Below are positions 48,068 to 54,975 of a stretch of 64,000 bases of DNA, one piece after another. Source of the stretch: Albidovulum sediminis (GTDB taxonomy: Bacteria; Pseudomonadota; Alphaproteobacteria; Rhodobacterales; Rhodobacteraceae); assembly GCF_025380365.1 (NCBI RefSeq), contig NZ_JAOCQF010000001.1:1290245-1354244 (forward strand), in the 5' to 3' direction. The translations under genes were made by a program, and so were the position numbers. Below the pieces are notes generated by a model. It was not told the DNA's origin. It searched no databases and saw only the letters and a list, made by a program, of their open reading frames with translations. Numbering within the stretch: position 1 is the stretch's first letter; each line of letters opens with the position of its first letter.

Positions 48068-48490
48068 ATGGCGGAAAGCATCATCGCGCGCTGCGAGGCC
48101 AAGGGCCTCAGGCTGACGGAACAGCGCCGGATCATCGCGCGCGTGCTGCAGGAATCCGAGGATCACCCGGATGTCGAGGAGCTTTACACCCGCGCCTGCG
48201 CGGTCGATCCGAAGATCTCGCTTGCCACGGTCTACCGGACCGTCCGGCTCTTCGAGGAGGCGGGGATTCTCGACCGGCTCGAATTCGGGGACGGGCGCGC
48301 GCGCTACGAGGATGCCGAGCGGGATCACCACGACCACCTGATCGACCTGTCCACAGGCGCGGTGATCGAGTTCTGCGACCCCGAGATAGAGGCGCTGCAG
48401 GAAAAGATCGCCGAAAGGCTGGGGTTCCGCCTGAAGGGACACCGGATGGAATTGTTCGGCGTGCCGCTCGGCGCCCGCAAGAAGGGCTGA
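48068..48490 (+). CDS. Fur-family metalloregulator, Mur/Fur type
   Basis: The 140-residue protein has a winged helix (GLRLTEQRRIIARVLQESED ... ISLATVYRTVRLFEEAGILD) and a dimerisation/metal domain. The metal region reads RYEDAERDHHDHLIDLSTGA and VIEFCDPEIEALQEKIAERL. The HHDHLID motif carries the metal-binding His residues. The absence of a CxxC structural zinc site and the C-terminal KGHRMELFGVPL fit alphaproteobacterial Mur/Fur, which often responds to Mn2+ or Fe2+. It is followed seven bases later by a DMT transporter gene. Target genes cannot be named. Confidence 0.92.
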   Translation: MAESIIARCEAKGLRLTEQRRIIARVLQESEDHPDVEELYTRACAVDPKISLATVYRTVRLFEEAGILDRLEFGDGRARYEDAERDHHDHLIDLSTGAVIEFCDPEIEALQEKIAERLGFRLKGHRMELFGVPLGARKKG

Positions 48491-51084: not shown

Positions 51085-51855
51085 TCAGAGCGCGACCTTG
51101 TATTCCTGGATGGTGTTGCCGCCGTCCACGACGATCAGTTGCCCGGTCATGTAGCTGGCCTCTTCCGCCGCGAGGAAGAGGACGGCATGGGCCACCTCCT
51201 CGGGGCGGCCGGGGCGGCCTAAAGGCGTGTAGCGTCCCGCCGTAATCTCCGCCTCGCTGGACGAGCCGGTGCGAATCCAGCCGGGGCCGACGCAGTTGAC
51301 CGTCACCCCCTGCCCGCCCACGTCGATGGCAAGCGCCCGCGTCATGCCGAGGATGCCTGCCTTGGCCGAGGCATAGATGGCCGAGGTCGGGATGCCGACG
51401 ACCGGCCCGGTGACCGAGGACATCTGGACGATGCGGCCATAGCGCCGTGCCGTCATGCCGGGCAGGACCGCACGGGTCATACGGAAGACCGAGGTCAGGT
51501 TGATGTCGATGCCGAAGGCCCAGTCGGCGTCGGGCGTGTCGGCAAGCCGGCGCGATTCGGTGTCATGGCCGGTCTGGACCATGCCCGCGTTGTTCACGAG
51601 GATGTCGATCGGCCCCAGTGCTGCCTCCGTCTCGGCGATCAGGCGGTCGACATCCTCCTGCCGGGTGAGGTCGGCGGAGGCGGCAAAGGTGCCTTCCCCC
51701 CCGAGTTCGCCCCGGCGGTCATGGATGCGGGCGGTCGTCGATGTGATCGCGACGCGCGCGCCCGCCGCTTTCAGCACCCGCGCGCAGGCGAAGCCGATCC
51801 CGTCCGCACTGCCCGCCCCGGTGACAAGCGCCACACGCCCCGCTACACCTGCCAT
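51085..51855 (-). CDS. Short-chain dehydrogenase/reductase (classical SDR)
   Basis: The 256-residue protein has the cofactor-binding glycines in VALVTGAGSADGIGFACARV, LVNNAGMVQTG, the catalytic Ser in QMSSVTGPVVG and Y-x3-K as YASAK. Conserved VNCVGPGWIRTG and YMTGQLIVVDGG close the fold. The ATG at 51855 is preceded by GGAGG with proper spacing; a GTG two codons earlier is possible. It is convergent with the eno-DUF2568 transcript. Substrate not identifiable. Confidence 0.93.
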   Translation of the reverse strand: MAGVAGRVALVTGAGSADGIGFACARVLKAAGARVAITSTTARIHDRRGELGGEGTFAASADLTRQEDVDRLIAETEAALGPIDILVNNAGMVQTGHDTESRRLADTPDADWAFGIDINLTSVFRMTRAVLPGMTARRYGRIVQMSSVTGPVVGIPTSAIYASAKAGILGMTRALAIDVGGQGVTVNCVGPGWIRTGSSSEAEITAGRYTPLGRPGRPEEVAHAVLFLAAEEASYMTGQLIVVDGGNTIQEYKVAL

Positions 51856-52104
51856 CCTCACCCTCCCCTTGCCATCTCCGCAAAGCTAGGACGTCCCGGC
51901 ACGCATGGGAAGCCCCGTACCTCCCGCCCCTGCCGGCCGTCCCCCGCTATGCCGGAGTTTTCGAAGCTGCAAGAGCGACGGCGGGTTCTCCGCCGGGGCA
52001 AGAGAGACGGCCGATGTGACCCCGCAACCGGGGATCGGCCGGGAGATATCTCGGCCTGTTGCCGGGCGCCAGCCCGGACCCGCCCCCCGCTTCGCCTGGC
52101 GCGG

Positions 52105-54714
52105 TCAATCGAGCCCCGATCGGGCCTCGATGGACTTCTGCCCGGGCCATGCGAACAACAGGGTGCGTATCTTCTGACTGAGCCAGGCATCGACCGGATC
52201 GTAAAGGCGCCAGACCACGACCCCGCCCACGATCGCGAGTCCCCATGACACGGCGGGGTTGTCGCCAAGGAGCGGCCGGGCAATCGCCGCGAACTGGAAA
52301 TGCGAAAGGTAGATGATCAGCGATGCACCTGCGACCATGCGCAGCCCCGTCGCAAAGATCCTTGGAAGCTGGATCACAGGTAGCCAGACGAGCGTCAAGA
52401 CCGCGAGCGCGAAGAAGGCGGGCCCGATGCTCTGGTACCCGTTCATCTGCCAGGCTCCGACCAGCAGGATTGCGGTGACGACGGCCTTTTCAATCGCCGA
52501 CCTTGCCACCCCGGCGGCAACTCCGATCATGAATATCCAGGCCATCAGATGCGGCAGCCGACGAAACAGATGGTGCGTATCCACCATCGAATCCGAAACC
52601 GCGGCAACCGCGACCAGCGCCGCGGCAGCGCACGCGGTCGCCCGACAGGTCTGCCGCTCCGTCGTGCGGCGTGCAGCGGAAATGGAAAGGACCAGCATCA
52701 GGACGCAAAGTAGCTGCAGATAGACTTCGATGAACCAGGCCGATCCTTCGACCTTGGGGGAAATCCAGTTGCCGATGAAAAGGAACGCGGGCCATTCGCC
52801 ATAGCCGGTGGCCACGAAGTTGAGTAGGGTGAAGCCGAAGGTGATGAGCGCAATCCGTACCGCCAGGACAGCGATCGGCGCAACACTCGCGAACTGGAAG
52901 ACCTGCGGCAGGGTAAAGGCTGCGAATGACATGCCCGCCACGACGAGAAGCGTTTGCGCGCCACCGCCGCCATATCCCAGAAATTCGAAATGCCCCGCGA
53001 CGACCAGCATGATGGCAAGCGCGCGCAGCAGCGTCGGCGTATCCAGGGGTGTCGTCCAGCCGCGCTTGCCGGCCTGGGCTTCGAGGTCGGCGACGCGCAT
53101 CGCAGGCCAGTTCCCGGGGAGCCGCCCGAGAACGGATTCGAGTTCCAGCGAAACGGCGACGTAACTCAGGCTGTCGCCGCCGAGATCTTCGAACGAGGTG
53201 GCAGAGGTGACCGTGGCGCGCGGGAAATGGGCCTTGAAGACCCCGGCGACATCGCGCCGCCGCCTGAACAGGATCCGGTCAGCGAAGGCGCGAAGGCCGG
53301 TTCGCGCGAGGTCCTGGCGGGTGGCGGCGTTGTCCGTCGCCGGCATGTCCTCGAGCATGGCGCCGAGCGCCTGGAGATCGACCTTGCCCGATGGCTGGCG
53401 CGGCAGCGACTGAATCTGCACGATCCTGAAGCTTCCCGCCGGAACGCCAAGCCAGTCCGCCAGGTGGTGATCGAGGCCTTCGGCCGGCATCGCAGGTCCA
53501 TCCACCGCCATGACGAACAAGCCTTCGCCGCGCGCCACGCAGGCGGCCTCAAGACCCAAGCCCTGCAGATGCCGATCGATTTCGTCGAGGCCGATTCGGA
53601 GTCCGAACAGCTTCACGAAACGGCTCTTGCGCCCGACAATCTCAAAGAGCCCGTTCGGCAGGCGTTGCGCGATGTCGCCGGTCTTCAGCAAATTGCTGCC
53701 CTGCCCCTCAAGCAGGTCGGCGTCCGACTGGGCATAGCCCATCATCGTGTTGGGCCCGCGATAGCACAATTCGCCGGGCATTCCGTCCGCCAAGGGTCTG
53801 CCGAATTCGTCTGCGACCCACATCTCGCCTCCGGGGATGGCAATGCCGATGGCCGAAGGCGTATCAAGCGCCATTGCCGGAGGAAGATACGAAATGCGCG
53901 GCGCGGCCTCTGTCTGGCCGTACATGACGAAGAAGTCCCAGCCCTCGGCGCGGCCCCGCTCGGCCCATTGCCGGACACGGGCTGCGTCCAGGCGACCACC
54001 GGCCTGCGTCATGTAGCGCAAACTGCCGAGGTGGTCGGTGCGGATACGCGCCTTTTCCATCAGTTCGAAACTATGCGGAACGCCGGCAAGGCTCGTGCAT
54101 CCGCAGCGTTCGAAGATTTCCCAGAACCCTGCATCAACGACGGAACCCTCGGTCAGCACGATCGCCGCGCAGACGGCGAGATGCGAATTCACGACCGACA
54201 TTCCGTAGGAGTACTGGAACGGAAGTGCCATAGGCGCGCGATCCTGCGGTCCGAGAGCGAGGTACTCCGCGATCGAGGCGGCATTCGACGCGAGGTTCCG
54301 GTATGAAAGGCGCACCCATTTCGCCGACCCCGTCGAACCCGACGTGGACAGGAGCACGGCCAGGTCCGGATGCCAGTCGGTGGCGGCGGCACCGAGCCTG
54401 ACCAGTTCATCGGTCGCCGGCGAATAGAGATGGGCAAGCGACAGCCCGGTTGTCTCGGCGTCCTGATCTTGCCCCATCAGAAGCACGGGGCAGCTCGCAT
54501 TCAGCGCGGCGAGATAGGCGACGTACTGGCGGTAATGACCGCTGCACCGGATACCGATCGGCCCTGGTTCCCCGGCGATCCTGCTGGCGAACGCCTCGAC
54601 ATCCTCTCCCAGTTCTCGATAGCTCAGCATTTTGCCGTCGGGGAAGAAGAAGGCCGGCGATTCCGATTTGACGATTCTCCAGAATTCTTCGTTCTTGTCA
54701 GGGATCGACGACAT
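52105..54714 (-). CDS. Adenylation domain - acyl/peptidyl carrier - acyltransferase-3 membrane fusion protein
   Basis: The 869-residue protein joins three modules. Residues ~1-455 are an AMP-forming adenylation domain: STSGSTGSAK at 123-132, MYGQTEA at 264-270, TGD near 346, and the C-terminal lysine of PSGK at 444. Residues ~480-545 are a phosphopantetheine carrier with LGGDSLSYVAV and the attachment Ser at about 515. Residues ~558-860 are an acyltransferase-3 domain of about ten helices, beginning LLRALAIMLVVAGHFEF with the conserved His near 575. This predicts activation of an acid, loading onto the carrier, and transfer to a sugar or lipid at the membrane in one chain. The start at 54714 follows GGAG. 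The gene is visibly less GC-biased than its neighbours. The substrate is unknown. Confidence 0.87.
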   Translation of the reverse strand: MSSIPDKNEEFWRIVKSESPAFFFPDGKMLSYRELGEDVEAFASRIAGEPGPIGIRCSGHYRQYVAYLAALNASCPVLLMGQDQDAETTGLSLAHLYSPATDELVRLGAAATDWHPDLAVLLSTSGSTGSAKWVRLSYRNLASNAASIAEYLALGPQDRAPMALPFQYSYGMSVVNSHLAVCAAIVLTEGSVVDAGFWEIFERCGCTSLAGVPHSFELMEKARIRTDHLGSLRYMTQAGGRLDAARVRQWAERGRAEGWDFFVMYGQTEAAPRISYLPPAMALDTPSAIGIAIPGGEMWVADEFGRPLADGMPGELCYRGPNTMMGYAQSDADLLEGQGSNLLKTGDIAQRLPNGLFEIVGRKSRFVKLFGLRIGLDEIDRHLQGLGLEAACVARGEGLFVMAVDGPAMPAEGLDHHLADWLGVPAGSFRIVQIQSLPRQPSGKVDLQALGAMLEDMPATDNAATRQDLARTGLRAFADRILFRRRRDVAGVFKAHFPRATVTSATSFEDLGGDSLSYVAVSLELESVLGRLPGNWPAMRVADLEAQAGKRGWTTPLDTPTLLRALAIMLVVAGHFEFLGYGGGGAQTLLVVAGMSFAAFTLPQVFQFASVAPIAVLAVRIALITFGFTLLNFVATGYGEWPAFLFIGNWISPKVEGSAWFIEVYLQLLCVLMLVLSISAARRTTERQTCRATACAAAALVAVAAVSDSMVDTHHLFRRLPHLMAWIFMIGVAAGVARSAIEKAVVTAILLVGAWQMNGYQSIGPAFFALAVLTLVWLPVIQLPRIFATGLRMVAGASLIIYLSHFQFAAIARPLLGDNPAVSWGLAIVGGVVVWRLYDPVDAWLSQKIRTLLFAWPGQKSIEARSGLD

Positions 54715-54975
54715 TGCCACTCCAAACCAGGCAATCCGAGCGCACCGTTGGGGTGGATTCTAGCATGACCGTGTCCCAATTCACCATCTTCGCAGCGGGC
54801 CTGAAGTCACCCGATCCCCGGAAGACCTTGCCCGCGGGCGGTGCAAGGCAGGGGTTCGGATCAGCCACGACACCTGACCGGAAGGCGCGGCGGTTGTGAA
54901 TGTATCGGGCACAAAAGCGTTGTGGCGGTCTTGTCGGTCATGGGCTACCCAGCGGGCCAAACGAGGGAGCCCGCG

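Follow-up and report, generated by a model that had tools for sequence, protein, structure and literature searches.

The analyzed stretch of Albidovulum sediminis DNA (a 64,000-nucleotide window of contig NZ_JAOCQF010000001.1) carries, at 52105..54714 on the minus strand, a single gene that encodes an adenylation domain, a carrier domain and a membrane acyltransferase domain of the acyltransferase-3 (AT3) type in one chain of 869 amino acids. The coordinates and the uninterrupted 869-codon frame reported for this gene by a first-pass annotation proved correct. The ATG lies at 54714, the final codon ends at 52108 and the stop occupies 52105-52107; a GGAG at 54720-54723, 5 nt ahead of the ATG, supports this choice of start. 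For the comparative analysis, the window protein was aligned with 48 long homologues from two phyla, giving an alignment of 49 long members.

The adenylation domain (residues 1-455; 53350..54714, minus strand like all features of the gene) matches Pfam AMP-binding with an E value of 5e-43, over the cut-off, and contains TSGSTG (residues 124-129), TGD, GR and an A10-type Lys (Lys444, within SGKVD), which are motifs of ANL enzymes; Lys444 and Arg273 are kept in 49 of 49 aligned members. The carrier domain (residues about 486-550; 53065..53259) holds a predicted phosphopantetheine site, Ser515 (codon 53170..53172), within FEDLGGDSL, and a Ser occupies this position in 48 of the 49 members. The AT3-type domain (residues 556-869; 52108..53049) contains an RX10H motif that starts at Arg564 (codon 53023..53025; Arg in 48 members, Lys in one) and ends at His575 (codon 52990..52992; His in all 49), and in the window protein this part is predicted to have nine hydrophobic segments, with 9 or 10 in 43 of the 49 members. 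In the window protein itself, the PP-binding match scores 16.2 bits (Pfam cut-off 20.8) and the Acyl_transf_3 match 19.3 bits (cut-off 31); we accept both matches because they are backed across the family, where, at E<=0.01, AMP-binding is matched by all 49 aligned members, Acyl_transf_3 by 39 and PP-binding by 36 (the highest Acyl_transf_3 score, 5.8e-27, belongs to L082, which has a divergent kind of AT3 part). The carrier serine signature and the AT3 segments proposed by the first-pass annotation were thus recovered by profile search, under the cut-offs in the window protein and with the support of its relatives.

The spacing between Arg564 and His575 is that of the RX10H motif of AT3 proteins, and the pair corresponds to R14 and H25 of OafB, both of which are essential according to excerpts of the published account (PMC12423673). 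The likeness to AT3/TmAT proteins (OafB, OatA, OacB) extends to the 9-10 predicted segments and to the Gly residues of transmembrane helices (TMH) 2 and 6 and a SxxxY-type Tyr in TMH9, kept in 47, 47 and 46 of 47 alignment rows, respectively. The fused protein differs from them in sitting behind its own adenylation and carrier domains (the AT3 fusions described in the excerpted literature are with SGNH and with alanine racemase, besides eukaryotic ones) and in three missing features: the DxxR Asp of TMH1, the Phe of TMH2 and, at its usual place, the RxxR of TMH3 (scored as K/R at P-3 and P-6) are each found in 0 of 47 rows. RxxR stands at the usual place in 9 of 9 clear AT3 proteins examined as a small control, for which 19 of 30 AT3 loci gave a row, 10 of these 19 being wrong frames, and in which the Asp was demanded by the selection itself.

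Excerpts of the same paper state that most of the conserved TmAT residues contact the common part of coenzyme A (CoA) (PMC12423673). Because the CoA-contacting RxxR is missing from its usual place, the acyl donor of the fused protein may sit on the protein's own phosphopantetheine arm rather than on CoA. A competing view, in which the AT3 domain takes cytosolic acyl-CoA as usual and the adenylation-carrier part does a separate job, agrees with the available part of an AT3 review, where acyl-CoA rather than acyl carrier protein is argued to be the donor on the basis of tested AT3 proteins. We nevertheless hold this view to be improbable, given the missing RxxR and the physical linkage of the two parts: the aligned members have both in one chain, and in the two split cases the genes are neighbours (the loci having themselves been found with the fused profile). 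These split cases come from two Rhodobacteraceae genomes that encode the adenylation-carrier and AT3 parts as same-strand neighbour genes, which supports a joint function: in L084 the two genes overlap by 8 bp and in L083 the AT3 gene lies about 80 bp upstream, with AT3 scores of 41.4 and 92.6 bits, respectively, against the cut-off of 31.

The substrate of the adenylation domain can be narrowed down in a similar way. In adenylation domains that activate amino acids, an Asp at the GrsA-235 position holds the amino group. Two nonribosomal peptide synthetase (NRPS) alignments place this Asp opposite Gly171 of the window protein, and another places it opposite Ser169. Since the 49 members carry S, C, I, A or G at position 169 and G at position 171, neither being acidic in any of them, an amino acid appears an unlikely substrate. 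This result divides the proposal of the first-pass annotation, which had seen in the gene a one-protein machine resembling the D-alanylation (Dlt) system: a logic of activation, carrying and membrane transfer within one chain likely stands, whereas an aminoacyl role does not agree with an adenylation domain that is devoid of the amino-acid Asp. The Dlt transferase, DltB, is an MBOAT protein, whereas the membrane domain of the fused protein is of the AT3 type. As far as excerpts of the literature describe it, the Dlt system (DltABCD) likewise activates and carries an acyl group and transfers it at the membrane; it does so with separate proteins and with D-alanine as substrate. Aminoacylation of a surface polymer by a single Dlt-like protein, in which AT3 would stand in for DltB, accordingly has little chance of being the right explanation in our estimate. 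Although all 49 adenylation domains match DltA models, they also match many other adenylation-domain models, and the window protein falls far under the cut-off for every curated model among the 25 matches listed; further points against it are that no teichoic acid or DltD gene was recognized by eye among the near neighbours in the window and that relatives carry iron-type control (see below).

Phylogenetic analysis of the adenylation domains places those of fused and split forms in one group (Shimodaira-Hasegawa-like approximate likelihood ratio test support 99), separate from the 10 stand-alone adenylation domains taken into the tree (those of six further loci were left out). One fused protein, L097, lies outside this group; it has a different adenylation domain ahead of the same arrangement and an AT3 match of 45.1 bits, over the cut-off. 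The clade of the window protein groups by adenylation domain with L081 and L082, whose AT3 parts are 18-19% identical to that of the window protein; we read this as a putative exchange of the acyltransferase part. The AT3 part of the window protein is 26-30% identical to actinobacterial ones vs. 18-24% to most others (tree support 88), a somewhat closer relationship that is suggestive only. Stand-alone adenylation domains that match the family profile (L110:6935-11713, L106, L113 and similar loci) are found in operons with LuxE, LuxC and SDR genes, sometimes together with a small carrier, and these operons often adjoin genes resembling those of sugar-acid synthesis; the L113 protein (877 aa) combines the adenylation domain with a LuxE-like part in one chain.

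Within the genus, 6 of 22 genomes, including that of the window, contain long fused homologues (E below 1e-87), and the closest relatives of the window protein are 56 to 68% identical to it. Among Rhodobacteraceae, 12 of 295 genomes match at E<=1e-100 (10 fused and 2 split, as judged from open frames and reading). The class sample gave matches in 12 of 385 genomes (5 fused and 7 with frames of 444-696 codons) and the phylum sample in 16 of 299 (6 fused, 1 split and 9 stand-alone or LuxE-linked), these three samples being overlapping. A match at E<=1e-200 was obtained in 35 of 394 Rhizobiaceae genomes, and Rhizobium etli CFN 42 encodes a homologue, RHE_RS24855. A Mycolicibacterium query matched 86 plasmid records at E<=1e-60, 74 of which cover at least 80% of the query, and viral contigs yielded four adenylation domains with 25-30% identity. 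The recurrence of long fused homologues in many separate genomes and plasmids excludes the possibility, considered by the first-pass annotation, that the domains had been joined by an assembly or frameshift error.

A hint of gene transfer, drawn from the lower GC content of the gene, gained further support. The fused gene has a GC content of 0.639 and a GC content at third codon positions (GC3) of 0.773, compared to means of 0.691 and 0.884 (GC3 standard deviation 0.041) for 16 nearby frames, only one of which has a GC3 (0.744) below that of the fused gene. In the adenylation-domain tree, genomes of the window's genus fall into four places, and many copies of the family sit on plasmids. Taken together, the scattered tree placement, the plasmid copies and the low GC3 indicate that the fused gene has likely spread by horizontal transfer. 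Two genomes each hold two fused copies from different branches of the family (L074 and L082 in genome G112; L073 and L076 in genome G157). One further copy, L119:8983-11594 (Rhizobium sp. NXC14), is annotated as two overlapping frames and may be broken.

A functional clue comes from the genomic context and promoters of relatives, beginning with Actinomycetota. Ferric ATP-binding cassette (ABC) transporter genes adjoin the fused gene, either after or before it, in 8 of 8 Mycobacteriales plasmid loci opened, with 4-bp gene overlaps at the R. fascians and M. crocinum loci. A YY pair is typical of ferric-binding proteins, and such a pair is carried by the nine substrate-binding proteins that were clustered (seven from Mycobacteriales and two from Rhizobiaceae). 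An IdeR/DtxR-like box (13-15 of 19 matches) is located about 30-70 bp before the first gene in all 10 actinobacterial loci opened, and when these 100 bp were shuffled 2000 times, 0-17 of the shuffled versions scored as high. Because five Rhodococcus loci are close kin, these loci amount to about four independent cases; the shuffle control, as well as the spacing controls given below, ignores kinship.

A second type of operator is found in Pseudomonadota, where RirA boxes have the form TGA-N9-TCA according to the excerpted literature. In a first set of 39 non-actinobacterial loci (including one record labelled Roseateles, a betaproteobacterium), TGA-N9-TCA is present at the promoter in 15 loci (11 of 34 without near-copies), vs. 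a mean of 1.1 for other spacings. A later Rhizobiaceae set, comprising 31 of the 35 matching genomes (four seen earlier were left out), has the box in 24 of 31 loci and in 13 of 19 upstream clusters, vs. a mean of 0.8 of 31 for 15 other spacings; one of its loci, L208, has no clear start codon. Two loci of the later set (L218 and L220) turned out to be identical to two of the first (L130 and L132), which leaves a fresh set of 29, where the box occurs in 22 loci and in 11 of 17 clusters (20 of 27 loci after dropping those >90% identical). Other genes of the same stretches show the motif in 10 of 289 cases, with no peak at spacing nine. Judged from promoter boxes and operons in these relatives, the family appears to be often induced by iron shortage.

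We therefore favor, as slightly more probable than improbable, an interpretation of the fused protein as a single-chain, self-loading membrane acyltransferase, much of whose family appears to respond to iron shortage through a probably extracytoplasmic product that perhaps binds iron. We infer the following order of reactions from the domain order and the residues described above. The cytosolic adenylation domain would adenylate a carboxylic acid, probably not an alpha-amino acid, and load it onto the phosphopantetheine arm of the adjacent carrier, which would present this arm, in place of CoA, to the AT3 domain; from there, the acyl group would cross the AT3 pore and reach an acceptor located on the outer side of the inner membrane or farther out. 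The product, a putative extracytoplasmic small chelator or iron-binding surface group, would then feed ferric uptake. A more specific version of this interpretation is tentative and, in our opinion, rather unlikely as a whole: a one-gene, iron-repressed system present in two phyla, in which a self-charged chelating or chelator-forming acid would be handed to a CoA-independent AT3 domain and its acyl group moved across the membrane, the chelator being assembled on the outer face and feeding an FbpABC-type ferric transporter, all without a multi-gene siderophore cluster.

Several observations weigh against a self-loading acyltransferase with an iron-related product. On the side of the enzyme, these are the carrier and AT3 scores of the window protein under the Pfam cut-offs, as given above, and an AlphaFold model (from four sequences) that, with a mean predicted local distance difference test score of 41.7, is too poor to confirm the TmAT fold. 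An RxxR is present somewhere in the TMH2-3 segment in 14 of the 49 members and a single Arg at P-4 in 23 of 47 rows, and L033 has Leu at the position of the carrier Ser. On the side of iron control, TTGAC, a part of the TGA-N9-TCA box, is also a -35 hexamer, and at L115 and L121 the IdeR box scores higher elsewhere in the locus than at the promoter. Ferric ABC genes adjoin just 2 of the 31 loci of the later Rhizobiaceae set, and, in the first set, L031 and L104 (at L127, an ABC transporter is two genes away from the fused gene), and no ferric ABC transporter adjoins either Micrococcaceae locus. The window clade (P0001, L023, L024, L025, L076) and its sister pair (L081, L082) have no TGA-N9-TCA box (0 of 7), and gene maps show no ferric transporter beside the window clade. 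The L074 locus, described below, points towards glycans. The substituted copy in L033 (L033:9995-12604, Rhizobium sp. Pop5; GGDLL at the carrier Ser) is adjoined by two IS30 transposase genes and may be decaying.

Because its clade has neither the box nor an iron transporter, an iron role of the window protein is suggested by homology alone. Rhodobacteraceae are described in literature excerpts as having no RirA and as using IscR with an Iron-Rhodo-box. A hemP match, sought in the window's genome to derive this box, was not found, and a strict palindrome search for the Iron-Rhodo-box gave two places. A gene for a Fur-family regulator (Pfam FUR E 3.5e-39) is located in the window at 48068-48490, separated from the fused gene by about 4 kb and, by its position, outside any operon with it.

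The neighbours of the fused gene in the window include an SDR gene on the same strand (51085-51861), an EamA transporter gene and genes for enolase, AnmK and TyrS (these three assigned by eye from translations); as previously noted for this locus, there is no glycan or NRPS gene among these named neighbours. The SDR gene is not a conserved partner, as gene maps show none adjoining L023, L024 or L025. Two phosphopantetheinyl transferases (PPTases) are encoded in the window's genome; the second PPTase-like gene, at G000:C11:2292707-2295957, adjoins a 1530-codon frame with an adenylation domain, likely an NRPS locus in the same genome. A defence role for the fused protein was considered and dropped, as PADLOC gave no match.

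The main competitor to an iron-binding product is an envelope acylation unrelated to iron binding, in which a non-amino acyl group (e.g., a hydroxy- or dicarboxylic acid) would be placed onto lipopolysaccharide, a glycan or a lipid, with iron only timing the remodelling. According to the excerpted AT3 review, outer-face sugars are the usual targets of those AT3 proteins whose function is known, and L074:1868-8831 (Rhodobacteraceae) adjoins genes for a WecG-family glycosyltransferase, a DegT aminotransferase, a GFO/IDH oxidoreductase and other sugar genes, so that at least one member of the family may act on a glycan; a large cadherin-like or lectin-like protein is also encoded beside this fused gene, and the surroundings are possibly a glycan cluster. 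Among 78 neighbour proteins scanned (92 were listed, of which 14 were set aside as short or nearly identical to others), Glycos_transf_2 and Epimerase were found in two proteins each. Additional support comes from the SDR/LuxE/LuxC operons of related stand-alone adenylation domains, which resemble, by description in excerpts, the group II flagellin glycan islands of Aeromonas (orf3, an AMP-dependent synthetase), where stand-alone domains matching the family profile would have their counterpart; these domains differ from the fused protein in having no AT3 part, and the 10 placed in the tree lie outside the fused/split group. However, the same scan revealed no conserved operon partner in the relatives of the window protein, as none of the best 25 of 125 families occurs in more than three of the 78 proteins, and decoration alone would hardly explain ferric ABC genes at all eight Mycobacteriales loci. 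Transfer to a glycan or lipid, as the first-pass annotation had proposed, is thus possible, while the iron-independent envelope explanation as a whole seems to us unlikely, though less so than the other alternatives.

A comparison of the fused protein with other known systems reveals partial similarities to each of them. The AlmEFG system, which attaches glycine to lipid A, combines an adenylation domain, a carrier and an acyltransferase, as the fused protein does; unlike the latter, it consists of separate proteins, has another kind of acyltransferase and uses an amino acid. The cationic homopolymer synthetases epsilon-poly-lysine synthetase (Pls) and PosA, in the published excerpts, share with the fused protein a single chain composed of an adenylation domain, a carrier and a membrane-bound end domain, and the A. 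baumannii gene likewise forms a single-gene operon. Their end domain is described there as having about 730 residues, six helices and three soluble parts, with diamino acids as substrates, whereas that of the fused protein has about 310 residues, is of the AT3 type with 9 hydrophobic segments and follows an adenylation domain without the amino-acid Asp. The literature used in this analysis comprises PMC9558356, PMC9833829, PMC7874193, PMC4618611, PMC6386902, PMC8464063, PMC10522769, PMC12423673 and PMC3783018. A literature search aimed at the adenylation-carrier-AT3 architecture found no characterised member in open-licence papers, in agreement with the initial statement that none was known.

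Overall, the significance of this family extends to AT3 proteins in general, which are widespread and for which the entry of the donor into the membrane pore is an open question. Because the donor of the fused protein would be held on the same chain, this question may become testable by changing one serine. For an architecture without a characterised member found, the iron-type operators and ferric-transporter operons of the relatives provide a first function to be tested.

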